A stretch of 46,234 nt of DNA, taken from the NCBI GenBank assembly GCA_005884945.1, contig VAYM01000140.1, positions 1-46,234 of the forward strand. Reading direction: 5' to 3'. The stretch's first letter is position 1; the number at the start of each line of letters is the position of its first letter. The notes under the pieces are model-generated. The model was not told where the DNA came from, did no database searches, and worked only from the letters and a program-made list of their open reading frames with translations. A program made the translations under genes and the position numbers. The DNA is from Actinomycetota bacterium. GTDB taxonomy: Bacteria > Actinomycetota > Thermoleophilia > Gaiellales > Gaiellaceae. Shown here piece by piece: positions 2 through 38,132 of the stretch.

Positions 2-97
2 AAGACCGACAAGGCGTGGGCATCAAGCTGTCGCGAACTCACGCTGCGCTTCAAGGATGGCACGATCAAGAGAGCCCGCTTCCAGCTCTCGAAGTAG
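2..97 (+). CDS. C-terminal fragment of an unknown protein (runs off the left edge)
   Basis: Open frame from base 2 reads KTDKAWASSCRELTLRFKDGTIKRARFQLSK and stops at TAG 95-97; a terminator-like hairpin follows. Confidence 0.4.
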   Translation, partial: KTDKAWASSCRELTLRFKDGTIKRARFQLSK

Positions 98-113
98 GTA
101 CGACGACAAGAGC

Positions 114-140
114 GGAGGGGGCCACGCGCCCCCTCCCCTT
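114..140 (+). terminator. Hairpin terminator after the partial CDS
   Basis: GGAGGGGGC(114-122)/GCCCCCTCC(128-136), then CCTT. Confidence 0.5.
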
Positions 141-306
141 CGCCTGGAGGAACAGGCTACCCCTCGAGTCTCGCTTTCCGGCCGCGTCAGAGGCTCTGCA
201 GCATCGCGTTGCGATAGAACGTCAAGCCCAACGCTGCCCCTGCCGATGCGACTCGTAGCGTCGTTAGCGGCGTACTCCGACTGGGCCGCTCTGCGCTCAC
301 TCCGGG

Positions 307-350
307 AGAGATCGCACCCCATGAGACCAGACAGGCGGGGTGCGATCTCT
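307..350. repeat. Perfect 14-bp inverted repeat (terminator-like hairpin)
   Basis: AGAGATCGCACCCC(307-320) and GGGGTGCGATCTCT(337-350) are exact reverse complements with a 16-nt loop. Confidence 0.7.
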
Positions 351-518
351 TGTTACGCGGGATGACTTCCCTCGTGGCGTCGCGACGAGCAGCGGATCCC
401 CGAAGTTGTCTCTCAACGCTCGCCTGAATTCGCGTCGATCACTCAGTAAGCAACCGCGCCGCTTCTCCTTGCACGCCCCCGGGCGTGCGCCGCAGATTCG
501 AGAGGAGGTGCAAAGCAA

Positions 519-698
519 ATGACGTTCACGGATCTGTACACCTATCTCCGCGCGCGCTTCGTGCGTGAGGAGGGTCAGACGATGGCCGAGTACGGCGTCG
601 TGCTGGCCGTGATCGCGCTCGCTGTGATCGTGGCGTTTACCGCGCTGGCCGGTGGTATCTCTCACGCGCTCAACAACGTCGCGAAGATCCTGCCGTAA
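519..698 (+). CDS. Flp/Fap-type pilin component (59 aa)
   Basis: MTFTDLYTYLRARFVREEGQTMAEYGVVLAVIALAVIVAFTALAGGISHALNNVAKILP: the G-Q-T-M-A-E-Y-G-V/hydrophobic-helix signature of Flp pilins. GAGGAGG SD at 502-508. Absent from the ORF track because it is under 60 aa. Confidence 0.85.
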   Translation: MTFTDLYTYLRARFVREEGQTMAEYGVVLAVIALAVIVAFTALAGGISHALNNVAKILP

Positions 699-712
699 GG
701 GACGAGGACTCT

Positions 713-753
713 CGAACGTCGCGAGGCTGCCCGCAGCAGCCACGCGACGTTCG
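713..753. terminator. Bidirectional terminator-like hairpin between the convergent pilin and GTPase genes
   Basis: CGAACGTCGCG(713-723)/CGCGACGTTCG(743-753), perfect 11 bp. Confidence 0.6.
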
Positions 754-755
754 TC

Positions 756-1673
756 CTACTGAGCGATCTCCACGGCATCGCCGTCCGCGAGCACGTGCTG
801 TGGCCCGACGCGTTGGCCCGCGAATCGCGCCGACGGGCCCCACACACGCGCTCCCGTGCACTGCGCGCCCAGCTCGTGATGGATCGAGTGAGCGACGTCG
901 GTCACGGTCACCGGCGGCCGTAGAGCAACCGGATCGTCGCCGCCGCGTAAATACACGCGCACGAGCCCCGTCAGGTCCCAGAGCACGGCGCCCAAGCGTT
1001 CGAGGCTCGCGTCGTCGAGGACGCTTACTGCAACGACCTCGAAGGACGGAAACGCCGCACGTATCCCCTCGACCGCGGACGACTCGGCGTCGTCTGCCTT
1101 CGTCGCCGCCACCGCTCCGGGCAGATCGATCCCGGCGGCTGCGACCTCGCTCATCACGGCCGCGAGCGCCGTCGTCGAGCCGGCGGCCTCCTGACAGAAC
1201 AAGATCGCGTCCGCACTCCGCAGCACGCTCAAAAGGGGACGCCCTCCGCCGCGACCGGCATGCGCGCCCTCGATGAGCCCCGGGATCTCGACGAGCTGCA
1301 CGAGCACGCCGCCGACCCGCGCCAGCGCGGGCACCGGGCGCGTCGTCGTGAACGCGTAATCACCGGTCTTGATCTGCACGTTCGAGAGCGCCTGCAGCAA
1401 CGACGACTTCCCCGCGTTCGGCGGACCGACCAGGGCGATCTGCGCGGCTCCCTCTCGCCGCACGGAGATCGAGTCGCGGTGGACGACACGCTTGCGCACG
1501 CGCGTCTGGTCGATCTGCGCCTCGACCCACTTGCGAATGTCTGCGTAAGGGCCGTTGCGGTATCCCGGCAGCTCGGCGAGGATCGTGCGCAGCTCGCGGA
1601 TCCGCTCCGTCCCTTCCTTGCCGACGAGCCGGCGCTTGATCACTTGCATCTGCGTGCGATGCGGCATCGGCAT
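756..1673 (-). CDS. DRG/OBG-family GTPase with C-terminal TGS domain
   Basis: G1 GPPNAGKSS, G3 EIPGLIEGAHAGRGGG, G4-like TKAD; C-terminal GARVWGPSARFAGQRVGPQHVLADGDAVEI matches the TGS end of DRG proteins. Confidence 0.8.
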   Translation of the reverse strand: MPMPHRTQMQVIKRRLVGKEGTERIRELRTILAELPGYRNGPYADIRKWVEAQIDQTRVRKRVVHRDSISVRREGAAQIALVGPPNAGKSSLLQALSNVQIKTGDYAFTTTRPVPALARVGGVLVQLVEIPGLIEGAHAGRGGGRPLLSVLRSADAILFCQEAAGSTTALAAVMSEVAAAGIDLPGAVAATKADDAESSAVEGIRAAFPSFEVVAVSVLDDASLERLGAVLWDLTGLVRVYLRGGDDPVALRPPVTVTDVAHSIHHELGAQCTGARVWGPSARFAGQRVGPQHVLADGDAVEIAQ

Positions 1674-1892
1674 CGCGTCACCTTTCCTTTCGATCGTGCA
1701 GGAAGGTGCGCGAGCTCAGCGCGTCAGCAGGCTCGCGTCCCGTCCCGCCGCTTCCCCGGACGCTGGTGTCGGAAGCGGCGGATCAGCCGTGTTGGCTGCA
1801 GGTGATCGATCGCCAGGCGCGCTCGCGCATGCGGCGAGCCTAGCACCGCAATGCTGGAATCCCCGCCCCTCGCCAGTAGAATCCGTCGTTCG

Positions 1893-2951
1893 ATGCTGCG
1901 TCGGCTCGCAGCGGTTGCGGCTTTCCTGTTCGCGGCTGTCCCCGCGCCGGTTGCGCAGGCGGGCGCGCTCGGGCTCGCAGAAGTGCGCGCAGCGGACGGA
2001 ACGCTGCTTGCCCAGGCCGGTGAAGGTCCCTTTGCGTATCCCGCCGACGGCTCGGTCCTGAAGATCGGCTGGGCGCGCGCGACCGCCGCGGGCGTCGAGC
2101 TTCGCGACGTCACGATGTTCAACGGCCGGATCTCCGCGTCCCGGATCGTCGTACCCGCGCGAGGTCTTGCGCGGGCGCGCGTGGAAGGTCTCGTCGCGGA
2201 CGGCAAGGCATACGTCGTCGGTCCGAACGCGCTGATCCATCTCCAGGGCGGCAGCTACCTCGTCGCGCTGCAGGAGGCGGTCTCGCCGGGCCGACACGGC
2301 TCCGGCCTCGTCGGTCTACGCGCGTACGTGTCGGATCCGTCCCTCGGCCTCGCGCCCGGAACGCAGCTCCTCGTGGGCCTTGCGCGCGCGGCGCATCCGA
2401 CGGGCGTCAATCATGCCGCGACGATCGTCCTCGGGTTACCGCAGCTCCCGGCGATGGAGGCTTCGCTGGACGGCGTGCCCGCGACGGCGACGAGCGGAAT
2501 CCCGACGTCGCTTCCGACGGTTTCCGGCGACGGCATCGGCGCGCAGGCGGTCGCGCTCGTGGAGCGATACCTCGGCGTCCCGTACGTCTGGGGCGGGGCG
2601 ACCCCGGGCGGGTTCGACTGCTCGGGCCTCGTGATGTACGTCTACGGACTGCTCGGCATCCGCCTCCCGCACTACAGCGGCTACCAGTGGTACTACGGCC
2701 GCCGGATCCCGGTCGACCAGCTGCAGCCGGGAGACATCGTGTTCTTTCACGCGAGCGCGAACGGCCCGCAGCACGAAGGGATGTACGTCGGCGCGGGCGA
2801 GTTCATCCACGCTCCGCACACGGGCGACGTCGTCAAGGTCTCGAGCCTCTACGACACCCAGTACGCCTTGAGCTACGTGGGTGCCGTCCGGCCCTACGCG
2901 GCGGGCGCCTCGCCCTCGTCGTTCTCCATCTGGACGTTGGCGTCCGGATAG
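1893..2951 (+). CDS. Secreted NlpC/P60 family peptidoglycan hydrolase
   Basis: Signal peptide MLRRLAAVAAFLFAAVPAPVAQA; GVPYVWGGATPGGFDCSGLVMYVY...H..MYVGAGEFIHAP catalytic motifs. The track ORF starts at 1851. Confidence 0.85.
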   Translation: MLRRLAAVAAFLFAAVPAPVAQAGALGLAEVRAADGTLLAQAGEGPFAYPADGSVLKIGWARATAAGVELRDVTMFNGRISASRIVVPARGLARARVEGLVADGKAYVVGPNALIHLQGGSYLVALQEAVSPGRHGSGLVGLRAYVSDPSLGLAPGTQLLVGLARAAHPTGVNHAATIVLGLPQLPAMEASLDGVPATATSGIPTSLPTVSGDGIGAQAVALVERYLGVPYVWGGATPGGFDCSGLVMYVYGLLGIRLPHYSGYQWYYGRRIPVDQLQPGDIVFFHASANGPQHEGMYVGAGEFIHAPHTGDVVKVSSLYDTQYALSYVGAVRPYAAGASPSSFSIWTLASG

Positions 2952-3121
2952 AGGACTCTCCAGACGCGCAGGTAGATCTCGAGCTCGTTCCGCGGAGAGG
3001 GTCCGGGCACCAGGTCGACCTCCAGGAGACCAGGCGCGACGACGAGCACCGCCTGGCCGAGGCTTTCCAGGAAGGTCGCCAGACGGTCCGTGTAGCTCGG
3101 ATCGGAGAGGCGGAGCTGCAT
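2894..3121 (-). CDS. Small conserved-looking protein, 75 aa
   Basis: In-frame ATG at 3121 in ORF 2894..3373: MQLRLSDPSYTDRLATFLESLGQAVLVVAPGLLEVDLVPGPSPRNELEIYLRVWRVLYPDANVQMENDEGEAPAA; protein-like composition, unlike the R/S-rich N-terminal extension. Confidence 0.5.
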   Translation of the reverse strand: MQLRLSDPSYTDRLATFLESLGQAVLVVAPGLLEVDLVPGPSPRNELEIYLRVWRVLYPDANVQMENDEGEAPAA

Positions 3122-4238: not shown

Positions 4239-5250
4239 CGAGTTGAACCTGAGGTCGATCCTCCGACCGGTGCCGCACCTCGAGCGGCACCCGGCGCAGC
4301 ACTTCCTGCTGATCATCATCGGTGCAGCACTCGCGCTCGGGGCGCTCGTTGGAATCGCGTGGGCGGCCGGATTCCACCAGGTCTACGAGCTGATGTCGGA
4401 CGTCGACGGCGTCTGGCTTCCAGGCGCGCTCTTCTTCGAGATCGCCGCGTACGCCGGCTACATCGTCGCCTACCGCGAACTCGTGCGCGTCGAAGGCGGC
4501 CCGTCGCTCGGGATCGGTCGCGCGGGCGCGATCGTCGCGGCGGGATTCGGCGTCTTCGTCATCCGCGGCGGCTTCATGGTCGACCGGCACGCGCTGGAGG
4601 ACGCGGGGATCCCCGAGCGGCAGGCGCGGATTCGTGTGCTCGGCCTCGGCGCGCTCGAGTACGCGGTGCTAGCGCCGGCGGTGGCCGTCGCTGCGATGGT
4701 GATCGTCGCCCGGGGACAGACGCATCCGAGCTTCGGGTTCACGCTGCCGTGGGCGATCGCCGTTCCGCTCGGTTTCGGCGCGGCGATCATCGCCCTCGCC
4801 TACCGCGAGCGGCTCCACGGGCATACGGGCTGGCGAAACGTCCTCGCGCACGCGCTCGAGGCGCTCTACGTGCTCCGCCGGCTTGCGGCGCAGCCGCGCG
4901 AGTACGCAGGAGCCTTCCTCGGCACCGGGCTCTACTGGCTCGGCGACATCGCGTGCCTCTGGGCGTGTCTGCGGACCTTCCACTCGCAGCCCGACCTGGC
5001 GGCGATGCTCATCGGCTACGCGACGGGGTATGCCCTCACGCGGAGGACGCTGCCGCTCGGCGGCGCAGGGACGGTCGAGGCATTCGTCTCGTTCGCGCTG
5101 GCCTGGGCCGGCGTGCCGCTCGCGAATGCCGTGCTCGCCGTCTGCGCCTACCGGTTCTTCAACCTCTGGCTGCCGCTTCTGCCGGCCGTGATCGGCCTGC
5201 GCCACCTGAAGCGCTGGCGCAGCCAGGTCGCGTCGAACACGACTCGCTAG
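4180..5250 (+). CDS. LPG synthase TM-like / UPF0104 flippase-like integral membrane protein
   Basis: Multiple TM segments; LPLGGAGTVEAFVSFALAWAGVPLANAVLAVCAYRFFNLWLPLLPAVIGL is typical of this family. The start is uncertain. Confidence 0.7.
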   Translation: MRARDTPCFVCGVTATPTPDELNLRSILRPVPHLERHPAQHFLLIIIGAALALGALVGIAWAAGFHQVYELMSDVDGVWLPGALFFEIAAYAGYIVAYRELVRVEGGPSLGIGRAGAIVAAGFGVFVIRGGFMVDRHALEDAGIPERQARIRVLGLGALEYAVLAPAVAVAAMVIVARGQTHPSFGFTLPWAIAVPLGFGAAIIALAYRERLHGHTGWRNVLAHALEALYVLRRLAAQPREYAGAFLGTGLYWLGDIACLWACLRTFHSQPDLAAMLIGYATGYALTRRTLPLGGAGTVEAFVSFALAWAGVPLANAVLAVCAYRFFNLWLPLLPAVIGLRHLKRWRSQVASNTTR

Positions 5251-6419
5251 TCCGCGGCTTCCTCGACCTCCGGCCAGAACTCTTCGACCGGGCGGTGGTG
5301 GATCGGCCCGAGCTCGGGGTGCGGCTGGAACCAACGCTGCGCGATTGCGGTCGGGACGATCGCGGAGAGGACGACGACGGTGATCAGAAGCGAGAACTGG
5401 GTCCGGTCGATGATGTGCGCATTCAGGCCGTAGAGCGAGCTGATCGTCCCGAACGTCAAGCCGGTCGACATCAGGAGCGTGGTGAACGTCGCATGCGGTG
5501 ACGTGAACCGGCGTGCAAGCGGGTAGATGCCGGCGAGCTTCGGAACCATCTTCGCGGCGAACAGCAACGCCAACACGCCGAGATTCGCCCAGACGGCGCC
5601 GAGCGAGACGTTCATCCCTCCCTTGAAAAAGAAGAGCGGCGTCAGGAACGCGAACGCGACGACACGCAGCCGTTCTTGTTCCTGCCGATGCTGTGCGTAG
5701 TGCGTGGCGAGGGCGAGGCCGAGGACGAACGCGGGGAGGACGGCGTGCGAATGGGCGCGGTCACCGAGCCACATGAGCACGAAGAGCGACGCGAAGACGA
5801 GCTTGATCTCCGGTTCGATCACGCGGTCGCCGTACCGGCCGAAGAACCACGGCGCGATCCTGGGCAGAACGACGATCAACAGGGCCGAGACGAGCACGAA
5901 CGGGACGATCCAGAGGTTCGGCTTGATGAAGAGGATCGAGAGAGCGGCGGCCGTCCCGAAGTCCGTGACGAAGGTCGCAGACATGAGCCGCTTCCCGACG
6001 AGCTCCTGGTTCAGACCGGTCTCGACGAGCACCGCGTACACGACCGCGAGGCTCGTGGTCGATAGGGCGATCCCGGCGATCTCGGATTGCTTGAACGTCC
6101 AGCCGAGCGCCCAGTGGGCAAACGCCCCCGCGGTGAGGAACGGGGCGAGGAACGAAACGGCGCCGATCGACACGCTCGCGTGCCATTCCCGCTTGAACTG
6201 CGGGACGTCCACCTCCGCGCCGGCGAGGAACGTCAGCACGATCCCGGCGAACGAGCCGATGAACGACAGCCAGTCAGGGACGTGCGGATGGAACGCGTTC
6301 CCGACGAAGACCCCCGCGGCCAGCTCCACGAGCGCGACGGAGAGGCCGATCTCGACCGAGATCGTGCTCGCGACGAGAATGGCGCCGCCGAGTACTGCCG
6401 CAAGAGCGAAGCTGCTCAC
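5247..6419 (-). CDS. Cation:proton antiporter (CPA2/KefB-like)
   Basis: About 11-12 TM segments; AGAEVDVPQFKREW, GIALSTTSLAVVYAVLVE, LPAFVLGLALA. Confidence 0.8.
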   Translation of the reverse strand: MSSFALAAVLGGAILVASTISVEIGLSVALVELAAGVFVGNAFHPHVPDWLSFIGSFAGIVLTFLAGAEVDVPQFKREWHASVSIGAVSFLAPFLTAGAFAHWALGWTFKQSEIAGIALSTTSLAVVYAVLVETGLNQELVGKRLMSATFVTDFGTAAALSILFIKPNLWIVPFVLVSALLIVVLPRIAPWFFGRYGDRVIEPEIKLVFASLFVLMWLGDRAHSHAVLPAFVLGLALATHYAQHRQEQERLRVVAFAFLTPLFFFKGGMNVSLGAVWANLGVLALLFAAKMVPKLAGIYPLARRFTSPHATFTTLLMSTGLTFGTISSLYGLNAHIIDRTQFSLLITVVVLSAIVPTAIAQRWFQPHPELGPIHHRPVEEFWPEVEEAAD

Positions 6420-6523
6420 CGCTCCTCCTTCGGAAGTGCTGTGGTCTCGAGTCCGTAGAGGCCATCAGCCCCGGAGGGCGGTTAGGCGCGAGCCTCATCG
6501 CGCGTCGCGCGGATCCTAGCGAG

Positions 6524-7258
6524 TCAGGCTTCGATGCGCGCGGACGCGCCGTCGAGCGCATCCAGCGCTCGACGGACATCCACGTGCTGGCCGACGAAGA
6601 TCGGCGTGTCGCGTTCCGTGTACCGCGACGCCTCGCTCTCACGCAGCGTGAGCATCAGGTGCATGAAATCCGCCGGCTCGTCGCACTCGAAGGCGGTCAT
6701 GAACTCCTGGTCGTCGATTCCGAACGAGTAGGTCGTGTGGTTGTGGATCGTCTCGAACTCCGCGCCGATGCGCATGTGCTCGTCCATCGCGCGCTGGCGG
6801 TCGTCTTCGGAGAGCGCGTACCAGGGCCGCACCTTCACGAACGGATAGACGACGAGGTACGGGGAGCCCTTCGGCACGACCTTGCGGGCGCGCCGCGCCT
6901 TCGTGTACTCGGACGCCTTCGTCGTCGCGAGGTACGAGTACGGCGTCTCGAGCCAGCCCGCGATCGGGGTGCCGTTGAGCCCGGCACCGAGCTCGCCGAG
7001 GTCCTCGTATCGCTCGGTGATCTTCCAGAGGAAGAAGTCGCAGTCGGGACGGACGCCCGAGCAGGTGTACACCCGCAGCCAGTCGAGCCGGGCCGCCCAG
7101 TGCTCGACGACATCGGCGAACGCGTCCTTGCCGGCCGCGCGCTCCTCGACCGGAAGCCGGCGCCACGCAGGATCGACGCGGTAGAACGTGTACGCGACGT
7201 ACTGACCGCTCACGCGGAAGATGCTAGCCGGGGAGGAGCGTCCAGAGGTTGGACGCAT
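6524..7258 (-). CDS. hemQ: Coproheme decarboxylase / chlorite dismutase family (HemQ/ChdC)
   Basis: WLETPYSYLATTKASEYTK, KGSPYLVVYPFVKVRPWYALSEDDRQRAMDEHMRIG. Confidence 0.85.
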   Translation of the reverse strand: MRPTSGRSSPASIFRVSGQYVAYTFYRVDPAWRRLPVEERAAGKDAFADVVEHWAARLDWLRVYTCSGVRPDCDFFLWKITERYEDLGELGAGLNGTPIAGWLETPYSYLATTKASEYTKARRARKVVPKGSPYLVVYPFVKVRPWYALSEDDRQRAMDEHMRIGAEFETIHNHTTYSFGIDDQEFMTAFECDEPADFMHLMLTLRESEASRYTERDTPIFVGQHVDVRRALDALDGASARIEA

Positions 7259-8471
7259 CAGGCGTCCGCTTCGGCGCTTGCGGTACGTCGGCGATCTCGG
7301 TCCAGCCGTCGTCCTCGCCGGGGACGAGGGAGCAGTCGACCGCGCCGGCGCCGATCTGCTGGATCGTCTGCCTGACCGCTGTCCGCGAGGCCTTCGGCGT
7401 CCCGTCCGAGTAGTAGACGCCGGACTGCCAGCGGCCGAGGTTGCTCTCGTCGGTCACGTGGAAGAGGAACATCGCGCGCACGGTCGGCTGGCAGGCCGCC
7501 ATCAGCAGCGCTTCGTCGTAGTACCGCCCCTGCGTCGCTTCGGTCACGGGCTTCGTCGTCGCCGGCTCGCGGCCGACGTAGTCATGGATCTTGGCCGCGG
7601 GAATGATCGACTCGATCCCGTACTCGTCGTAGATGATCGGCAGCTTCGAGCCGAGCTGCGCCGTGCCGTTGAACGCCTTGCCGAGCAGGCCGACGAGCTT
7701 GTCGTAGTCGGCGAGCCCGATCGACGTGCCGTCCGGATGGCCCGCGTCCGGGGCGACGGACGAATTCTCCCCGTAGGGATGGAGCGCGAAGCCGTCCATG
7801 ATCGGCTTCGTGCGGCCGCTGTCGCGATAGGCGATCCCGAGGTCCGTGATGAACGCCGTCGGCGAATGCGTCTTGCGTCCGAGCTTCGGGTTGTCCGAGC
7901 CGTGCGGCGACACTGAACCGCCGATGACGAACGCGTTGGCGTCGACGGCCTTGATCGCGTCGTAGGTGCGCGCGAGCAGCTTCGCGTACATGCTCGCCGC
8001 GAGGTCCTCGCCGTCCGGCCCGAACTGCGGCAGCCAGTAGCGGTTGATGTTCGGCTCGTTCCCGATGATCAGGTTGCGCATGAGCGGGACGCGCCGTGTC
8101 AGGTCGGCTGCGAACGACGCGAACTGCCTCTGTGCGCCCGTCGTCAGCGGCGTCGTCCGGCTGCCGTACGGCATGATCGTCGTGTAGATCGTGATCCCGT
8201 CGAAGGCGCCGGCGGCGGCGACGGACTGCAACGCGGCGAGCTGGTCGTCGGGGACCGTCGTGTCACCGGGAGACCAGATCGCAGTGACTCGGAGCGCCTG
8301 GAAGCCCGCCGCCTTGGCGAGGTCGACCTTGGCGCGGGCGACGGCCGGATCGGCGTTCCGTCCCTCGTCCTCGGCCGCTCCGATCGTCATCGTCATCGAG
8401 GCGGCCGCCGTCGCCGGGGCAAGGCATGCCAGCAGGCACAGGGTCAGGATCGAGAGACGGAAGAGGCGCAC
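7224..8471 (-). CDS. Secreted glycoside-hydrolase-like (TIM-barrel) protein, paralog A
   Basis: GTG 8471 gives a signal peptide (VRLFRLSILTLCLLACLAPATAAA); IGNEPNINRYWLPQF and IIYDEYGIES resemble clan GH-A acid/base and nucleophile regions. The track ORF extends to 8633. Confidence 0.6.
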   Translation of the reverse strand: MRLFRLSILTLCLLACLAPATAAASMTMTIGAAEDEGRNADPAVARAKVDLAKAAGFQALRVTAIWSPGDTTVPDDQLAALQSVAAAGAFDGITIYTTIMPYGSRTTPLTTGAQRQFASFAADLTRRVPLMRNLIIGNEPNINRYWLPQFGPDGEDLAASMYAKLLARTYDAIKAVDANAFVIGGSVSPHGSDNPKLGRKTHSPTAFITDLGIAYRDSGRTKPIMDGFALHPYGENSSVAPDAGHPDGTSIGLADYDKLVGLLGKAFNGTAQLGSKLPIIYDEYGIESIIPAAKIHDYVGREPATTKPVTEATQGRYYDEALLMAACQPTVRAMFLFHVTDESNLGRWQSGVYYSDGTPKASRTAVRQTIQQIGAGAVDCSLVPGEDDGWTEIADVPQAPKRTPDASNLWTLLPG

Positions 8472-8595
8472 GCAGAAAGAAGTCGGGAACGGAGGAGCAT
8501 TTGAGTCTAGTCCGGCGCGTCGAAGATTCAAGAGGGTCGAAATCCCCTGTATAGGGGAGGGCGACCCGGCCGAACGGCCGATATGTTGACAGACG

Positions 8596-8720
8596 TCAGG
8601 GTTGCGTTGCCAAGCTCTCACCGTAGGGAGCACGGGAAGCTCGCCACTCTCCCTTTCTGGTGCGATCCTGAGGTTCGCTATGCGGCCCGGCCTTCTCCAA
8701 CCGGGCCGCTTTCCCTTTTA
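8596..8720 (+). ncRNA. Candidate structured small RNA with Rho-independent terminator
   Basis: 11-bp closing helix TCAGGGTTGCG(8596-8606)/TGCGATCCTGA(8661-8671, includes G.U pairs), internal hairpins, then 9-bp stem GCGGCCCGG(8682-8690)/CCGGGCCGC(8701-8709) and TTTCCCTTTT. Confidence 0.45.
8682..8720 (+). terminator. Rho-independent terminator on + strand
   Basis: GCGGCCCGG-N10-CCGGGCCGC followed by TTTCCCTTTTA. Confidence 0.75.
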
Positions 8721-8749
8721 CGCCGGAGTGATGCGAACCAGACGACGGG

Positions 8750-10174
8750 TCAGGGAACCGTGAAGCGACGGCTGACCGACCGTGGTGGCCCTGGGTTGAC
8801 GGGCGCCGTCAGCGAAACGCCGACCGTATATCTGCCCGGAGGCAGCGCGCCGAGCAGAACGCGTCGCTGGATACCGCCGATCGCGAGCCCGTGCCTACGT
8901 CGGATCGTCCGCCCCGCGGCGCGCACAGTCAGCGCGTAGCTGCAGTCGATGTCGCAGCGCAGATCCGCACGGACGCGGGCCGCCACCTTGACGACGCCGA
9001 GTGACGCGCGCGGGGTGAGCGCGAGCGACGGACAGCGCGTGACGACGCCCCGGTGCGCCTCCCTGACGGCCGTCCGCACGGCCGGGAGATCCGACTTCGG
9101 CTTCCCGTCGACGTAGAACAGCCCGGACTGCCAGCGATTCAGGTCGCCCTCGTCGATCGTGTGGAAGATGAAGAACCCGCGCACGTTCGGCTGGCAGAAC
9201 GCCAACTCGATCGCCTGCCGGTAGTAGTCGCCCTGCACGGACTCCGGCACCGGCTTCACGCTGGCGATCTCCTGGCCGGTATAGAGGCTCGCCTTCGGTG
9301 CGGGGATCTGCGACTCGACGCCGAACTCGGTGTAGTAGATCGGCAGTGTCGAGCCCTGCTGGGCAGTCCCGTCGAACGCCGTACCGAGCAGCGAGACGAG
9401 CTTGTCGTAGTCCGCGACCGCGATCGTCGTCGAGTTCGGGTGCCGGCCGTTGACGGGCGCGATGCTCGAGTTGTCCTCGTACGGATGGATTGCGAGCCCG
9501 TCCATGATCGGCTTCGTCCGCCCGCTGTTGCGGTAGACGGTTCCCATGTCGGCGATGAACGCGGTCGGCGAGTGTGTGAGGCGGATCGAGGTCGGATCGT
9601 CGCCGCCGTGTGGCGAGAGCGCGCCGCCGAGGACGAGGATGTTCCGCGAGACCGCCTTCAGGGCGTCGTAGCTCTCCGCGAGCAGGGCTTCGTACCCCGC
9701 GGCGGCCGCGTCCGAGCCGTCGAGCTCGAACTGCGGCAGCCAGTAGCGATTCAGGTTCGGCTCGTTCCCGATCACGAAGCGCCGGATGTCCGGCACGGCC
9801 CGCGCGATCGCGGCCGCGTACGCAGCGAAGTCCTGACGCTCCTGCTCCGTCAACGGCGCCGTCCGGCTGCCGAAGTTCATGACCACGAGGAACACCTGGA
9901 CCCCGTCGAGGTGCGCGGCCTCTGCGACGTTCCTGAGCACGTCCGTGTCCGCCTGCGACGGGGCGGTCTGGCCGGGTGCCCACACCTGCGTGAGCCGAAC
10001 CGAGTTGAGGCCCGCTGAGGTCAGCAGATCCATCTGCGCCTTCGCGCCGACGAGGGTCGGCTGACGCACCGCATCCTCCGCCGCTCCGATCAACATCGTC
10101 GGGCCGCCGGCTGATGCGGTCGAGGGCAGCGCCCCCGCGAGCGCCAGCAGAGCCAGGACGACGAGACGCTTCAC
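8750..10174 (-). CDS. Secreted glycoside-hydrolase-like protein, paralog B with extra C-terminal domain
   Basis: Signal peptide MKRLVVLALLALAGALPSTASA; FVIGNEPNLNRYWLPQF, IYYTEFGVESQIPAP; extensive identity to the 7224-8471 product plus a C-terminal extension of about 90 aa. Confidence 0.65.
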   Translation of the reverse strand: MKRLVVLALLALAGALPSTASAGGPTMLIGAAEDAVRQPTLVGAKAQMDLLTSAGLNSVRLTQVWAPGQTAPSQADTDVLRNVAEAAHLDGVQVFLVVMNFGSRTAPLTEQERQDFAAYAAAIARAVPDIRRFVIGNEPNLNRYWLPQFELDGSDAAAAGYEALLAESYDALKAVSRNILVLGGALSPHGGDDPTSIRLTHSPTAFIADMGTVYRNSGRTKPIMDGLAIHPYEDNSSIAPVNGRHPNSTTIAVADYDKLVSLLGTAFDGTAQQGSTLPIYYTEFGVESQIPAPKASLYTGQEIASVKPVPESVQGDYYRQAIELAFCQPNVRGFFIFHTIDEGDLNRWQSGLFYVDGKPKSDLPAVRTAVREAHRGVVTRCPSLALTPRASLGVVKVAARVRADLRCDIDCSYALTVRAAGRTIRRRHGLAIGGIQRRVLLGALPPGRYTVGVSLTAPVNPGPPRSVSRRFTVP

Positions 10175-31784: not shown

Positions 31785-32666
31785 ATGATTCGCCGTCTAC
31801 TCCTGATGGTCGTCGTGGTCGCCTGCACGGCGCCCGTGCTCGGAGGCGGCGCTGCGCCGCCGGTGCTGGTCGCGCAGGGAGTCACGGTCGCGGGGATTCC
31901 GGTCGGCGGAATGAGCTACGAGCAGGCGCAGGCGGCTGTGACGCCGGCGTTCAACCGCTCGATCCGGGTGATGCTCGGCTCGATGCGACTCAGGGTGTCG
32001 CCGGCGCGCTTCGGCATGTCCGTCGCGGTTGGCGACGGAGTGTCGCGCGCTCTCGATGCGTCGCCCGGAGATGCGGTCGAGCTCGTTCCGAGGATCGACG
32101 CCAATGCGGTGCAGGGACTCGTCCCGCAGTTCAGCGATGCGACGATCGGTCGCAGGGTCGTCGTCGGAGCGACGACGAAGAGGCTCGTGCGCGCGCTGAA
32201 GCTGCCGAGCGCGCGGCGCGTGCGGATCGCGGTGCGGATGATCGCGCCGAAGGTGACCGCAGCGAGCTTCGGCCCGGTGATCGTGATCCGCCGCGGCGTG
32301 AACGAGCTTCGGTACTACGACGGCAAGACGCTCGTGCGGACGTTCGGCGTCGCGACGGGGCAGTCGGTCTATCCGACGCCGACGGGGCAGTTCGACATCG
32401 TGGACATGCAGCGGTATCCCTGGTGGCGTCCGCCCGACTCGCCGTGGGCGCGCGGGCTGAAGCCGATTCCACCCGGGCCGGGCAATCCGCTCGGGACGCG
32501 CTGGATGGGCCTGTCGGCAGCGGGCGTCGGCATCCACGGCACACCGGACGACGCGTCGATCGGCTATTCGGCCTCACACGGCTGCATCCGCATGCACATC
32601 CCGGACGCGGAGTGGCTGTTCAACCACGTGCACTTAGGCACGCCGGTGGTGATCACCGATGCCTAG
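31785..32666 (+). CDS. Secreted L,D-transpeptidase (YkuD) with N-terminal VanW/PG-binding-like region
   Basis: Signal peptide; IHGTPDDASIGYSASHGCIRMHIPDAEWLF (HxxxxxxxxxxxSHGCxR). Confidence 0.9.
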   Translation: MIRRLLLMVVVVACTAPVLGGGAAPPVLVAQGVTVAGIPVGGMSYEQAQAAVTPAFNRSIRVMLGSMRLRVSPARFGMSVAVGDGVSRALDASPGDAVELVPRIDANAVQGLVPQFSDATIGRRVVVGATTKRLVRALKLPSARRVRIAVRMIAPKVTAASFGPVIVIRRGVNELRYYDGKTLVRTFGVATGQSVYPTPTGQFDIVDMQRYPWWRPPDSPWARGLKPIPPGPGNPLGTRWMGLSAAGVGIHGTPDDASIGYSASHGCIRMHIPDAEWLFNHVHLGTPVVITDA

Positions 32667-32704
32667 GACGGCGTCGGTCTTGGGCAACGGCTTCAACCGC
32701 AGAC

Positions 32705-32760
32705 GGCGGCGCGAGGCAAGCTCGCACCGCCTCTAACGCGGCTTCGCGAGCGACGCCGCG
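32705..32760. repeat. Two consecutive hairpins resembling the 17.9-18.15 kb array
   Basis: GGCGG-c-GCGAG-GCAAG-CTCGC-a-CCGCC(32705-32731); CGCGGC-t-TCG-CGAG-CGA-c-GCCGCG(32737-32760). Confidence 0.7.
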
Positions 32761-32813
32761 GGGACGCCCGTGGTCATGACGGACTCGTAGACCGGCGGTA
32801 CAATCCGCCCCGC

Positions 32814-32886
32814 GCGGACGTAGCTCAGTTGGTAGAGCATCAGCTTCCCAAGCTGAGGGTCGCGGGTTCGAACCCCGTCGTCCGCT
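32814..32886 (+). tRNA. tRNA-Gly (anticodon CCC)
   Basis: Acceptor GCGGACG/CGTCCGC, D-arm AGCTCAGTTGGTAGAGC, anticodon arm TCAGC-TTCCCAA-GCTGA, T-arm GCGGG-TTCGAAC-CCCGT; 3' CCA not encoded. Confidence 0.95.
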
Positions 32887-32926
32887 TGTCGTCGCGATTG
32901 CCCGGTTCGGGCTTAATGTCCAGGCC

Positions 32927-33292
32927 GTGCCCGTCTCCGTCGACGAGGTCTGTGCGCTGGCGAGGACGCTGCCGCGAGCCGGCGAGGCGTTCGTCCGCGG
33001 ACGCGTCAAGTTCCGCGTCGGCAGCATCGTCTTCCTCTCCTTCTCGAAGGACGGAGAGACGATGGGCTTCGGCTTCCCGAAGGAGTGGCGGGCCACGCTC
33101 GTCGAGAACGAGCCGGAGAAGTTCTCGCTCCCGAGCGAGTCCGACATGCGCTTCCACTGGGTCCACGTACGGCTCGATTCCATCGACCAGGACGAGATGC
33201 GCGACCTCGTCGAGAACGCCTGGGCCCTCTGCGCCCCGAAATTCCTCGTGGAGGAGTACGCGACCGCGCAGGGGTACCGTCGTGGGGATTAG
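32927..33292 (+). CDS. MmcQ/YjbR family protein
   Basis: VRGRVKFRVGSIVFLSFSKDGETMGFGFPKEWR...HWVHVRLDSIDQDEMRDLVENAW. Confidence 0.75.
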   Translation: MPVSVDEVCALARTLPRAGEAFVRGRVKFRVGSIVFLSFSKDGETMGFGFPKEWRATLVENEPEKFSLPSESDMRFHWVHVRLDSIDQDEMRDLVENAWALCAPKFLVEEYATAQGYRRGD

Positions 33293-33352
33293 GACTGCGC
33301 CGAATCCATAGAGGCAGGAACGTCGGCGTGGGCTCCGAACGGGACCCACGCG

Positions 33353-34114
33353 ATGCCGGTTGCCCAGCCGGAGCTCGAGCAGTTGATGGATGTCGTCCGC
33401 GACGTCGCCGGAGCGCTCGCAGGACGCCTCAGACCCGGCTTCGTCGACCTGGAGGAGCTCGAGGCGGATGGCTTCGAGGGCCTCGTCAAAGCGCTGGACG
33501 ACTACGACAGCGCGAAAGGTCCGTTGACTCCGTACGTCGTCGTCCGTTCCCGCGGCGCGATGATCGACGGGCTCAGAAGGAAGACGATGACGAGCAGGCG
33601 TGCGCGCGCTGCTGGGATCGCAGAACCAGAGGTGCTGTCGCTCGAGCACGAGGTCGACGAAGGCGTGCGTCTGATGGACGTCATCGTCGATCCGACGTCG
33701 CCCACGCCCGAGGAGGCGAGTCTGTCGACCGCGGCTCCGGCGGTTCGATCTGAGCTCGCTTCCCTGCCGAAGCGCCACCAGCGCATCCTTGTCCTGCGTT
33801 TTCTGCACGACCGCCCGCGGACGGAGATCGCCGCGGCCGAAGGCATTCCGGTCAGCCGTCTCGTCCTGATCGAGAAGCGCTTCCGCGATCGGCTACGGCC
33901 GCCGCGGCCTGCCGACACGGATCAGTTGACGGAGAAAGAGCTCGCGGTGCTGCGGCTCGCTGCGGAGGGAGCGAGCGCCGCCGAAACGGCGAAGTCGGTC
34001 CGCCGGAGGCTCGAGACCGTGAAGTCCCAACGGTGCCGAATCATCGCGAAGCTGCGTGCGCGCAACATGATGAACGCCGTCGCGATCAGCTACCAGCGCG
34101 GCCTGCTCCGGTAG
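33353..34114 (+). CDS. RNA polymerase sigma-70 family protein fused to a C-terminal LuxR-type HTH
   Basis: Region 2 LEELEADGFEGLVKALDDYDSAKGPLTPYVVVRSRGAMIDGLRR; region 4 LPKRHQRILVLRFLHDRPRTEIAAAEGIPVSRLVLIEKR; C-terminal LTEKELAVLRLAAEGASAAETAKSVRRRLETVKSQRCRIIAKLRARNMMNAVAIS. Confidence 0.8.
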   Translation: MPVAQPELEQLMDVVRDVAGALAGRLRPGFVDLEELEADGFEGLVKALDDYDSAKGPLTPYVVVRSRGAMIDGLRRKTMTSRRARAAGIAEPEVLSLEHEVDEGVRLMDVIVDPTSPTPEEASLSTAAPAVRSELASLPKRHQRILVLRFLHDRPRTEIAAAEGIPVSRLVLIEKRFRDRLRPPRPADTDQLTEKELAVLRLAAEGASAAETAKSVRRRLETVKSQRCRIIAKLRARNMMNAVAISYQRGLLR

Positions 34115-34169
34115 CTCGGCGTCCGTGCCGAGCGGGACGGCTGCTCGCCGCCCCGCTCGTACCTCGGCG

Positions 34170-34673
34170 TTAGCTCGGGGCCTTCTGGTTGATGCCGGCC
34201 TTGAACATGCCGCCGGTCGCGATCTTCGTCAGCAGCTTGTCCGCGTTGCTCTCCTCGTCGAGCGTTTGGTCGAGCAGATCCTTTGCCTCGGCGAGGTCGA
34301 GCTCGCCCGCCAACGTGCGCGCCGTGCCGTACGCGGCGATCTCGTAGTGCTCCACGCGCTGGGCGGCGGAGATCAACGCCGCGTCCTTCACGACCGGGTC
34401 GCCGGTCGCCGAGACGATCTCCTGGCCCTCTTCGATCAGGCCGCGCATCCCTTCGCACTCGTCTGACATCGAGCTTCCGATCTGCCCGCGGATGTCCTCG
34501 AGCCGGCGAACGTGGTCGCGCGTCTCCTGAAGGTGGTGCTCGAACGCCTCGCGCAGCTCCTTGTTCGACGCGGCCTGCGCCAGCTTCGGCAGCGCGCCGA
34601 CGAGCTGTTGCTCGGCGCTGTAGAGATCGGAGATCTCGTGCTCGAACAGGTCCTGCAATGTCTGCAGTTGCAT
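34170..34673 (-). CDS. DUF892/YciE-family ferritin-like protein
   Basis: MQLQTLQDLFEHEISDLYSAEQQLVGALPKLAQAASNKELREAFEHHLQET...ISAAQRVEHYEIAAYGTARTLA. Confidence 0.88.
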   Translation of the reverse strand: MQLQTLQDLFEHEISDLYSAEQQLVGALPKLAQAASNKELREAFEHHLQETRDHVRRLEDIRGQIGSSMSDECEGMRGLIEEGQEIVSATGDPVVKDAALISAAQRVEHYEIAAYGTARTLAGELDLAEAKDLLDQTLDEESNADKLLTKIATGGMFKAGINQKAPS

Positions 34674-34788
34674 GGTGACCCTCCTCGTTTGCGTGCGAGC
34701 TCTGGCCCTTCCCGGTTCGAAGGCTGCGTAACCGCGATGGAGGAGAGCCTGTTGACGCCGCGAAACAACGGGGCTCCGGGGCCTCCTG

Positions 34789-35553
34789 ATGATCCGAATC
34801 GAACAGACGATCCTCCAGCTATGGCACTTGTTGAGAGCGGACTCGCCGCTCGGCGCGCGAGCCCGTCGCCGGGCCACGGCGACGAGCGCGATGGCGATCG
34901 CGGTTCTGGCGCTGTTCGTCTCCGTCGGCCTGGTGACGATCGTGCTCGTCGTCTGTGCGATGGTCGTCTCGGCCGGTTCGCTGCTCGCGGCCGCGCTGCT
35001 GCTGCACCGTCACCGTGCGCGGCTCCGCGGGTTAGGTCTCCGACTCTGGGACCGCGGAGCGGAGATCACTCTGCGCGCGGCGTCGCGAACGGTCCCGGCT
35101 CTACGCCGCGTCGGCGCACACGCATCGGCGGGCGCTCGCACGGCACAGGGCGTTGCGCGCACCTCGGCAGTCGAGGCACGGACGAGAGCCGAGACGTTGC
35201 ATCGCCGGGTACGTTCGTCCGCGCTCGCGGACCGGCGCGGTCAGGCCGTTCGCGCAAATGGACTGGAGATCGGCGATCGCCGCGCCGAAGCGCTGACGCT
35301 GAACAATCTTGCGCTCGCGCTCGAGCGCGGGGGCGATGCACGAGCGCTCGCGCTGTTCGAAGAGTCGGCGACGATTCTCGGCGAGCTCGGTGACGAGCAG
35401 AACGAGGGCCAGGTGATCGCGAACCTCGCGCTCGCGTTTCGTCGACGGGGGCAGGAACAGGAATCCGTCGAAGCGCTCGAGACGGCGCTCGCCAAGCTCG
35501 AGCCGGAGTCGAACGCCTACCGCAAAGCCGAACGGCTGCGCCGCGCAAGCTGA
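34789..35553 (+). CDS. Membrane protein with C-terminal TPR repeats
   Basis: Two N-terminal TM segments, then ALTLNNLALALERGGDARALALFEESATILGELGDEQNEGQVIANLALAFRRRGQ. Confidence 0.65.
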   Translation: MIRIEQTILQLWHLLRADSPLGARARRRATATSAMAIAVLALFVSVGLVTIVLVVCAMVVSAGSLLAAALLLHRHRARLRGLGLRLWDRGAEITLRAASRTVPALRRVGAHASAGARTAQGVARTSAVEARTRAETLHRRVRSSALADRRGQAVRANGLEIGDRRAEALTLNNLALALERGGDARALALFEESATILGELGDEQNEGQVIANLALAFRRRGQEQESVEALETALAKLEPESNAYRKAERLRRAS

Positions 35554-35585
35554 CCGTCTCTACTCGCACTCGGAGGTCGAAATCG

Positions 35586-35831
35586 ATGGATCGTCTGTTG
35601 CAGAAGTACGTTGCGGCCCTCCTCGGCTTCGGTTTCACGGCCGTCTTGTTGACGCTGGGGCTCGGTTCGGCGATCCTCTGCCTCGTCACCTCCGGCATCG
35701 CTGTCGGCGCGGTCTCGCTTGGCCACCGACGTCGGATCGACCGCTTCACCGCCGAGTTCATGGACGAACGGGGCACGCGGCGCAGACGAGAAGCGCGCAC
35801 GGATCAGCGGCTCGTGCACGAGCACGGGTAG
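35586..35831 (+). CDS. Small membrane protein (81 aa)
   Basis: MDRLLQKYVAALLGFGFTAVLLTLGLGSAILCLVTSGIAVGAVSLGHRRRIDRF; TM helices, plausible SD (CGGAGG). Confidence 0.5.
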   Translation: MDRLLQKYVAALLGFGFTAVLLTLGLGSAILCLVTSGIAVGAVSLGHRRRIDRFTAEFMDERGTRRRREARTDQRLVHEHG

Positions 35832-36044
35832 CTCAGGTCTCGAGCGGCAGAAGCCGCGCGAACGTGACCTCCTCTCTTCCGCGACGATCGTTGCGTTCGC
35901 AATCGGCTGATCCTGCGTGCTGACGCGGGCTCCGCTGACGTACAAGGGGTTCCTCCTCAGACGGCGACTGTTTCTCCTCTCCATTTTCGCTTGACTTCGT
36001 AGCGGCTCCGGAGCATGCTCGCGCGGAGCAGCGGAAGGAGTCGC

Positions 36045-36131
36045 ATGAGCCGTCCGACATCGCTGCTGCGGCATGTGTCCCTCGACGAGGCGCAGATAGC
36101 TGCGGCCGTGGGAGGTGATACGCCGGCCTGA
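36045..36131 (+). CDS. 28-aa peptide, candidate RiPP precursor/leader-like peptide
   Basis: GGAAGGAG SD 4 nt before the ATG; MSRPTSLLRHVSLDEAQIAAAVGGDTPA with a leader-like LDEAQIAAAVGG; directly precedes the maturase-type genes. Confidence 0.5.
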   Translation: MSRPTSLLRHVSLDEAQIAAAVGGDTPA

Positions 36132-36189
36132 TCCGGGGCTTCGCTCTGCGGTCTGCGGCCTTTCGTCCACGCCGAAAGGGGAGACCAAC

Positions 36190-36507
36190 GTGGCAACAGA
36201 AAGCAAGAGGGGATCGACCGCGCTGATCGAGCAGCAGCCGATCACGCGCGAGCGCCTCGAGCAGCTCATCGACGTCCTCAAGGAGCACGACGTCGAGATC
36301 GTGCACTGGTTCCCGAAGGGAATCCCGAACCCCGAGGTGCTGTACGGCGCCGTGAAGGCCCGGCCCGAGGTCGTCGGGAAGCTCGTCGGCAAGATCGTCG
36401 CGACGGAGGGCGTCCGTCTGCGGCTCGACGTGTTCCCGCTCGGGATCCCGTTCCCGGACGAGGTGCTCATCCAGTTCGAGACGCCTCAGGGCTACATCGG
36501 CGGCTGA
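36190..36507 (+). CDS. 105-aa protein of unknown function with internal repeat (FPKGIPNPEV / FPLGIPFPDEV)
   Basis: GTG start with a GGGGAG SD; MATESKRGSTALIEQQPITRERLEQLIDVLKEHDVEIVHWFPKGIPNPEVLYGAVKARPEVVGKLVGKIVATEGVRLRLDVFPLGIPFPDEVLIQFETPQGYIGG. Confidence 0.7.
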   Translation: MATESKRGSTALIEQQPITRERLEQLIDVLKEHDVEIVHWFPKGIPNPEVLYGAVKARPEVVGKLVGKIVATEGVRLRLDVFPLGIPFPDEVLIQFETPQGYIGG

Positions 36508-36513
36508 ACTGCG

Positions 36514-37521
36514 GTGGGGCCGACCGGCGCTTCGCGCATCCTCCAGATCCACCCGACGTTGCGGTGCAACCTGCGCTGCCTGCACTGCTACTCGTCGTCT
36601 GGGCCGGAGGAGCGGACGGAGCTGCCGGTCGGCCTCCTCGGGAATGCGATTGCAGCGGCACGTGCGGAGGGATACACGGTCGTCAGCGTGTCCGGCGGCG
36701 AGCCGCTGATGTACAGGCCGCTGGCCGAGCTGCTCGAGCAGGCGCACGCATGCGCAGCGCTGACGACCGTGACGACGAACGGGATGCTGCTGACGAAGCG
36801 GTGCCTGGCCGAGCTCGTGGGACGCCTCGACCTGCTCGCGATCTCGCTCGACGGTCCGCCCGAGTCGCACAACCGCATGCGCGCGTCGGAACACGCCTTC
36901 GCGCAGATGGAGTCGCGACTCGACGGCCTCCGCGCGTCCGGGATCCCGTTCGGGTTCATCTTCACGCTCACGCAACGGAACGTGCACGAGCTCGACTGGG
37001 TCGCGCGGTTCGCCGTCGAGCAAGGCGCCCGGTTGCTGCAGATCCATCCGCTCGAGGAGGTCGGCCGCGCGCGACGGCTGCTCGCCGGAGACCGGCCCGA
37101 CGAGCTCGAGTCGGCGTATGCATTCCTGGAGGTGACGCGCCTGCGAGAGCTCTACGCCGAGCAGCTGACCGTGCAGCTCGACCTCGTGCACGGCGAGCTC
37201 CTGCGCGCGGCTCCGGAGCGCGCCTACGCCGGCGACGCGGATCCGGATGCACCGCTCGCGGAGCTCGTGTCGCCGCTCGTGATCGAGGCGAGCGGAGCCG
37301 TCGTTCCACTCGAGTTTGGATTCGCGCGCGCGTTCGCGCTCGGCAACCTGCGTAATGCGCCGCTCGGGGAGCTCGCCGAGCGTTGGCGGCGCGAGCGTCT
37401 ACCGGCGTTCTCTCGCGTCTGTCGCGGCGCCTTCGATGCGATCACGGCCCCGGCGGAGCTTCCGTTCGCGAACTGGTACGAGGTCGTCGCCGACCGAGCG
37501 GAGGACATGCTGCCGGCGTAG
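36514..37521 (+). CDS. Radical SAM protein (RiPP-maturase-like)
   Basis: CNLRCLHCY (CxxxCxxC), SGGEPLMYRPL, TTNGMLL, AISLDGPPESHNRMR; C-terminal VIEASGAVVPLEFGFARAFALGNLRNAPLGELAERW resembles a SPASM region with reduced Cys content. Confidence 0.88.
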   Translation: MGPTGASRILQIHPTLRCNLRCLHCYSSSGPEERTELPVGLLGNAIAAARAEGYTVVSVSGGEPLMYRPLAELLEQAHACAALTTVTTNGMLLTKRCLAELVGRLDLLAISLDGPPESHNRMRASEHAFAQMESRLDGLRASGIPFGFIFTLTQRNVHELDWVARFAVEQGARLLQIHPLEEVGRARRLLAGDRPDELESAYAFLEVTRLRELYAEQLTVQLDLVHGELLRAAPERAYAGDADPDAPLAELVSPLVIEASGAVVPLEFGFARAFALGNLRNAPLGELAERWRRERLPAFSRVCRGAFDAITAPAELPFANWYEVVADRAEDMLPA

Positions 37522-37550
37522 GTCGGCTTCGACTGCGCAACAATCGGCGG

Positions 37551-38132
37551 ATGGAGGCCTGGACCGAGGTCAACCTCGTCACGCGACGGCCGCTGGACCG
37601 TGACGTCCTCGTCGACGTCGTCGATCCGCTCGTCCACGACGAGCTCGGCGGCGAGATCGAGACGTGGTTCTTCTTCTGGGAGCCCGACCTGAGGCTTCGA
37701 ATTCGCTGGCGCGATCCGCAGCATGTGGACGAGAACCGCGGCCGGCTCGCGACGAGCCTCGACCGGGCGGGGTCGATTCGTCGCTGGTACGAGGGTGCGC
37801 ACGGCGAAGAGGGGAAGACGTACGCCGGTGAGGCGGAGCACTACGGCGAGGACGTGTGGCCGGGAATCCAGAAGGACTGGATGAACGGCAGTGAGCTGGC
37901 GTTGCTCGTCCTGAAGCTCGAGCGCGAGAGTCGGCTCGCAAGGCCGCGCGACTACCACTGGCAGCGGCACGTCCACCTGTTCACGAACCAGCTCTTCGGC
38001 TCCTGGGAGGACGAGATCGCGCTGTGCCTGCGGCAGGCGCTCGGCTACATCCGCCTCAGCGGGGGGACGACGCGCGAGGCGCGGAAGCTGATCGCCGAGC
38101 TGGGCGAGCTCAGCGGCCGGCGAGGTCGATGA
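37551..38132 (+). CDS. Stand-alone lantibiotic dehydratase C-terminal (SpaB-C / thiopeptide-type) domain-like protein
   Basis: ETWFFFWEPDLRLRIRWRDPQHV...YEGEV-like YAGEAEHYGED...HVHLFTNQLFGSWEDEIALCLRQAL, resembling LanB C-terminal/thiopeptide-type proteins. Confidence 0.6.
   Translation: MEAWTEVNLVTRRPLDRDVLVDVVDPLVHDELGGEIETWFFFWEPDLRLRIRWRDPQHVDENRGRLATSLDRAGSIRRWYEGAHGEEGKTYAGEAEHYGEDVWPGIQKDWMNGSELALLVLKLERESRLARPRDYHWQRHVHLFTNQLFGSWEDEIALCLRQALGYIRLSGGTTREARKLIAELGELSGRRGR

Follow-up and report, generated by a model that had tools for sequence, protein, structure and literature searches.

A probable substrate-enzyme pair of a G-I-P motif protein and a radical SAM enzyme in a Gaiellaceae genome

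Background

Spliceases are SPASM enzymes that act on X-Y-G together with PlpY (PMC11002830, PMC10533398). The spliceotide system PlpXY shares with the locus described here a radical SAM enzyme, a short motif ending in Gly, and long-leader precursors. The proteusin epimerases PoyD and OspD have one [4Fe-4S] cluster and an essential Cys, and the PoyD type carries a C-terminal RRE (PMC8326336); the single cluster is what they share with our enzyme. SkfB, SuiB, CteB, PqqE, and anSME resemble it in the radical SAM core, the peptide or protein substrate, the adjacent precursor gene, and as its nearest solved folds. In the three-residue cyclophane (triceptide) RiPPs, an aromatic residue lies two positions before the cross-linked residue, and the modifying enzyme is a SPASM enzyme. 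C39-exported GG-leader bacteriocins and RiPPs offer a further likeness, as the GG leader and the HlyD and C39 ABC genes recur at Nitrosomonas and gammaproteobacterial loci of the present family. The C-terminal domain of class I lanthipeptide LanB proteins (PF14028) is matched by the downstream gene at 37551-38132.

We analyzed a locus within a 46,234-nt stretch from a member of the Gaiellaceae (GCA_005884945.1, contig VAYM01000140.1, positions 1 to 46,234), hereafter the window. Radical SAM RiPP systems are a known kind, and the cassette found here, named GIP after its motif, is probably an undescribed variant. A literature search, with most subscription journals outside its coverage, found no paper on the GIP motif or on this enzyme group.

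Organization of the locus

The preliminary description of this DNA reported a compact set of four ORFs, and all four were found again at 36045-38132 on the + strand. The 28-aa ORF (36045-36131, +) has a strong Shine-Dalgarno sequence (SD), GGAAGGAG, 5 nt before its ATG. The 105-aa ORF (36190-36507, +) has a GTG start, the SD AAGGGGAG, and the C-terminal end GYIGG. Its reported repeat, FPKGIPNPE/FPLGIPFPD, is real, since only 10 of 2000 shuffles scored as high or higher. The CxxxCxxC radical SAM gene (36514-37521, +; 335 aa) starts six bases past the 105-aa stop codon, and a stand-alone LanB-C-like gene (37551-38132, +; 193 aa) follows after a gap of 30 nt. As also reported, the genes next to the four ORFs include no transporter, YcaO, or LanB N-terminal gene. 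The locus contains no protease or exporter gene, and a promoter scan found nothing.

The locus lies between an L,D-transpeptidase gene and a GNAT gene, in an interval of about 5.4 kb (32666-38110) that also contains a tRNA-Gly gene, YjbR, a sigma-like protein, DUF892, and a TPR protein. The tRNA-Gly(CCC) gene (32814-32886) is at the edge of this interval. In a genome of the same genus (G249), the order GlpX, FBA aldolase, L,D-transpeptidase, GNAT, and M32 peptidase is kept, with a different gene between the transpeptidase and GNAT genes. The cassette is thus in a variable stretch next to a tRNA gene.

The radical SAM enzyme and its relatives

The enzyme matched PF04055 (Radical_SAM) with E=2.8e-21. 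In NCBIfam, only generic radical SAM similarity was found, with all scores far below the curated cut-offs. The motif CNLRCLHC (residues 18-25; 36565-36588, +) contains the cluster ligands C18, C22, and C25, the sole invariant cysteines in 42 aligned relatives, whereas C303 is kept in 33 of the 42. Depending on the alignment, 37-42 members were compared. PF13186 (SPASM) was weakly matched in 9 of 37 members, and the SPASM cysteines are gone; the C-terminal part therefore looks like a cluster-free SPASM domain.

The relatives were collected by a scan with the radical SAM protein in which each species was represented by one genome. A coherent group, 43-60% identical, comprises enzymes from Nostoc and other cyanobacteria, Nitrosomonas, gammaproteobacterial MAGs, Acidobacteriota, Bradyrhizobium, Roseomonadaceae, Streptomyces/Kitasatospora, and Saccharothrix, followed by a distant tail of about 30% identity. 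Relatives of the gene pair are thereby spread among soil bacteria, cyanobacteria, and ammonia oxidisers. Among 103 genomes of the window's own family, the enzyme was found in only one other (G307; 43% identity). A quick tree with supports of 80-91 and several open forks placed the window enzyme with those of Acidobacteriota and cyanobacteria, apart from Actinomycetota and G307, a placement that is consistent with horizontal transfer without proving it. Plasmid searches with either the 105-aa protein or the radical SAM protein returned none.

A conserved motif in the upstream ORF

The ORFs upstream of each enzyme gene were first listed without any motif in mind, and a small ORF ending just before the enzyme gene, with GIP-like segments, emerged from this list. 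In 40 of the 46 loci, the radical SAM gene is directly preceded by a small motif-bearing ORF; these counts are inflated by near-copies from Nostoc and Nitrosomonas, so the independent events number fewer than 46. The motif [F/L][P/I]-x-G-I-P-x-P-D occurs in these ORFs once or twice, in most cases preceded by [R/S]G[S/D]xxL at the N-terminus. Over 42 copies, the consensus is [F/L]-[P/I]-[R/N/K/Y]-G-I-P-x-P-D. The leader-like motif, in the form [RSKTQC]G[SD]xx[LMF], occurs near the N-terminus in about three quarters of the precursors. In the window protein, it reads RGSTAL (36208-36225, +), and the two motif copies are FPKGIPNP (residues 41-48; 36310-36333, +) and FPLGIPFPD (residues 82-90; 36433-36459, +).

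We also scanned the three forward frames of the 450 nt upstream of each enzyme gene, independently of any ORF choice, with the strict form [FLIVWM][PIT]xG[IVL]P. The strict motif occurred in 36 of 46 upstream windows, against 30 of 1952 other windows from the same loci. By residue count, there were 50 copies in 3,736 precursor residues, compared with 7 in 121,900 residues of neighbouring ORFs. Four of the ten loci missed by the strict scan carry a relaxed motif (L011 FPMGIVNP, L014 PTIGIVWP, L050 FPLGTINP, and L053 FPWGFPEP), and the remaining six are Saccharothrix. The six Saccharothrix enzymes (L036, L037, L038, L039, L041, and L051) are 43-44% identical to the window enzyme; no adjacent motif-bearing ORF was found at these loci, and a profile search of four of the genomes (L036, L038, L041, and L051) gave no precursor match anywhere.

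No Pfam or NCBIfam model covers the precursor family: Pfam gave nothing convincing for the 105-aa and 28-aa products, and NCBIfam had no match for the 105-aa protein. In the 12 genomes with a profile match, there was one precursor per genome. The 105-aa protein retrieved only itself from 299 genomes of its class (E<=0.001), and the precursor profile retrieved only two already known members from 250 genomes of the class of an Acidobacteriota genome, so the distribution is sparse. The locus scan required exact octapeptides. Compared across its relatives, the core of the locus is a two-gene cassette of the 105-aa protein and the radical SAM enzyme.

Two styles of precursor

The precursors come in two styles. 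Those of Nitrosomonas, gammaproteobacteria, and cyanobacteria are typical GG-leader RiPP precursors of 64-97 aa, in which a leader such as LTPEEISQIAGG comes before a core that carries the motif once or twice. HlyD and C39-peptidase ABC genes lie directly downstream in Nitrosomonas and gammaproteobacteria, and Nostoc KVJ20 has a C39 ABC gene at its locus. In the second style, which includes the window and the Acidobacteriota, Bradyrhizobium, and Streptomyces-type precursors, there is no GG leader; the proteins mostly have 100-132 aa and two motif copies about 40 residues apart, and the enzyme is the only common neighbour. Unlike the C39-exported bacteriocins and RiPPs, the window form thus has neither a GG leader nor an exporter. 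The precursor of G307 has 132 aa, begins with MASKEKRGSEKV, and contains IINGIPFPDL.

Some loci had additional features. One acidobacterial precursor (L010:5540-5986) has a Tat-type signal (TIGR01409) before the GIP domain, with FPCGQPDP as its first motif; the twin-arginine signal suggests that the protein is exported folded. Upstream of the G307 cassette lies a gene for a 462-aa protein with a Cys-rich N-terminal part and no Pfam match (L088:1093-2481). In Nostoc KVJ20, two more GG-leader bacteriocin-like ORFs, beginning MSKYDVINAERFAIEELSPEKQQYIQGGG and MSNYNVMASDNFAIEELTLVEQEMIQGGG (L014:7063-7250 and 7364-7554), separate the radical SAM gene from the C39 ABC gene.

Predicted structures

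An AlphaFold2 model of the 105-aa protein, built on 20 aligned precursors, had a pLDDT of 81, with values above 90 over 47 residues. It predicts a small folded (alpha-beta-beta)2 protein with the order alpha-beta-beta-alpha-beta-beta, in which strands 36-43 and 50-57 form hairpin 1, and strands 78-84 and 91-97 form hairpin 2. Both G-I-P segments lie in the predicted turns of these hairpins, copy 1 in the first and copy 2 in the second. Part of the motif conservation could therefore be structural. Searches of PDB and viral folds with this model gave only weak matches of the permuted ferredoxin kind (PilO, EpsL, and XcpY; best E against PDB 0.002) and no functional hint. The winged-helix RRE was ruled out as the fold of this protein. 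For the enzyme, the model (pLDDT 93.6, pTM 0.91) was nearest to SkfB, with DesII, SuiB, anSME, CteB, PqqE, and EpeE also among its closest folds.

Substrate assignment and alternatives

The sequence comparisons show an enzyme family whose genes are almost always preceded by a partner ORF, and a motif, often present twice, that the partner ORFs have in common. We infer that the enzyme acts on the product of the partner ORF and modifies it at x-G-I-P. For the 105-aa protein, a substrate role is very probable because a motif-bearing ORF recurs upstream, part of the precursors have GG leaders, and the motifs lie in predicted hairpin turns. As in RiPP systems, a gene-encoded precursor with leader and core lies beside a modifying enzyme, with a GG leader in a subset. 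On this evidence, we consider it likely that the two proteins belong together as substrate and enzyme, within a radical SAM RiPP or protein-modification family that is so far undescribed. The spread of relatives over several phyla, the single precursor per genome, the likeness of the enzyme fold to peptide-modifying radical SAM enzymes, and the presence of just three invariant cysteines also speak for this reading. The Saccharothrix enzymes with no motif-bearing ORF nearby, the near-copies among the loci, the possible structural share in the motif conservation, and the lack of a protease or exporter gene at the window's locus weigh against it.

Alternatively, the GIP protein could stay unmodified as a partner, that is, a leader-binding or substrate-presenting subunit, with the enzyme acting on another molecule. 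Some RiPP enzymes do work only with a second small protein at their side, such as PlpY, and the 105-aa protein is a predicted folded domain. However, its fold is permuted ferredoxin-like rather than a winged-helix RRE, and a second conserved small ORF is absent. In Nitrosomonas, gammaproteobacteria, and Nostoc, moreover, the motif-bearing ORF at this position encodes a short GG-leader peptide, in several cases next to a C39 exporter gene, as is usual for a precursor. We regard a partner role as unlikely.

It is slightly less probable still that the enzyme is an already known splicease or epimerase under another name, merely another member of its class. Spliceases act at Xaa-Tyr-Gly, and some of the motifs here read FPYG-IP or FPYG-VP (L008, L013, L021, L031, L032, and L052); proteusin epimerases likewise have a single cluster. 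However, the residue before the motif Gly is mostly Arg, Asn, or Lys, with Tyr in a minority, so that the site is x-G-I-P instead of X-Y-G. Neither a PlpY-like gene nor any other conserved small partner gene was found, and the cysteines of the SPASM domain with which splicease is described are missing. The NCBIfam scores are far below every cut-off. As for the epimerases, their invariant catalytic cysteine is absent, C303 being missing in 9 of 42 relatives, and the C-terminal part of the enzyme is SPASM-like instead of an RRE.

Other described classes were also considered and rejected. No thioether is expected, since most core motifs lack Cys; against a sactipeptide or ranthipeptide, the window precursor has zero Cys and the enzyme no auxiliary cysteines. 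The GIP enzymes differ from SkfB, SuiB, CteB, PqqE, and anSME in the missing auxiliary-cluster cysteines and in the substrate motif. Against a triceptide, the aromatic is not constant in the motif, since 21 of 42 copies begin with Phe and 14 with Leu, and the SPASM cysteines are absent. A class I lanthipeptide or thiopeptide needs an N-terminal glutamylation domain and a Ser/Thr/Cys-rich core, and no such gene is in the locus.

The least probable alternative, in which all four genes form one pathway and the radical SAM and LanB-C enzymes modify the 28-aa peptide or the 105-aa protein, draws on the common strand, the short gap between the two enzyme genes, and the strong SD and GG stretch of the 28-aa ORF, but the LanB-C gene is missing from every other radical SAM locus and stands alone in G249, its elimination domain would need a glutamylated substrate that no adjacent LanB N-terminal domain could make, and the 28-aa ORF is not conserved and would have a core of four residues.

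Proposed mechanism and significance

For the substrate-enzyme pair, we propose that the enzyme binds the N-terminal RGSxxL region of the precursor. Its one [4Fe-4S] cluster would generate a 5'-deoxyadenosyl radical, which would abstract a hydrogen within x-G-I-P at each hairpin turn. Because the enzyme lacks auxiliary-cluster cysteines and any further invariant cysteine, the net reaction would most likely be redox-neutral, or the electron would be returned to the same cluster. Epimerisation and a local cross-link are equally tentative candidates for the reaction, a splice-like backbone rearrangement comes close behind them, and some other reaction is rather unlikely. In Nitrosomonas, gammaproteobacteria, and cyanobacteria, the product would be a peptide released by cleavage behind the GG, with an adjacent C39 ABC transporter exporting it in several cases. 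At the window's locus and at the Acidobacteriota, Bradyrhizobium, and Streptomyces-type loci, the substrate resembles a small folded protein and probably stays intact.

In its broadest form, the proposal is a horizontally scattered radical SAM family that performs a reaction not seen before at x-G-I-P turns, both on intact folded proteins of about 100 aa and on leader-core peptides; we hold this as a possible but doubtful extension. If true, it would bridge RiPP biosynthesis and permanent protein modification, with two hairpin tips modified per molecule of about 100 aa. With this analysis, the anonymous 105-aa ORF and the unnamed radical SAM gene become members of a defined enzyme-substrate family whose modification site is predicted, and a possible new peptide chemistry becomes directly testable. 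A peptide radical SAM enzyme that lacks the SPASM cysteines but keeps traces of the domain is also a useful case for studying electron disposal.

The LanB-C-like gene and the 28-aa ORF

The protein encoded at 37551-38132 matched PF14028 (Lant_dehydr_C) with E=3.1e-9, above the Pfam cut-off, in agreement with the LanB-C likeness first noted. It keeps HVHLFTNQL, which resembles the HMHxNRL of LanB proteins. In contrast to class I LanB, the 193-aa protein has no LanB N-terminal domain beside it and is unlinked to the cassette in relatives. The LanB-C gene is in none of the loci of about 45 radical SAM relatives. G307 carries the cassette without it, and G249 carries a LanB-C gene, 67-69% identical, elsewhere in its genome, where it follows an M23-type peptidase gene and is not accompanied by the cassette. 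A search of 348 genomes of the phylum (E<=1e-8) gave no relative beyond that of G249. The gene lies outside the conserved cassette and probably arrived in this variable region independently of it.

The relatives therefore do not support the radical SAM and LanB-C pairing, from which the preliminary description argued, as the defining feature of a class. Its broader suggestion of an undescribed RiPP or peptide-modification class survives for the 105-aa/radical SAM pair, which recurs across phyla, in some cases with clear GG-leader precursors. The preliminary description made its reading depend on small ORFs being conserved beside the radical SAM gene; this holds for the 105-aa ORF and not for the 28-aa ORF.

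The coding status of the 28-aa ORF, with its strong SD and VSLDEAQIAAAVGG, is uncertain. Just three ATG ORFs of 20-45 aa in the 46-kb window are preceded by an SD, this one included, so it is possibly a real gene. Near its end, a GG-leader-like stretch is followed by four more residues. Upstream of the other precursors, no counterpart was found, and the ORF was rejected as a precursor for this lack of conservation. A role as an attenuator, in which a hairpin would hide the SD of the 105-aa gene, was also rejected, as the predicted stability was no better than that of shuffles (z=0.35).

Elsewhere in the same genome, contig C166 (L090, 1-9000) contains a separate class I lanthipeptide locus, with LanB (4-3003, -), a LanC-like gene (5739-7046, -), an ABC transporter gene (7245-8861, -), and two GG-leader precursors (4533-4712, + and 5195-5428, +). 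At the other end of the window, a 38-aa SD-preceded ORF (582-698), MAEYGVVLAVIALAVIVAFTALAGGISHALNNVAKILP, resembles a Flp-type pilin.
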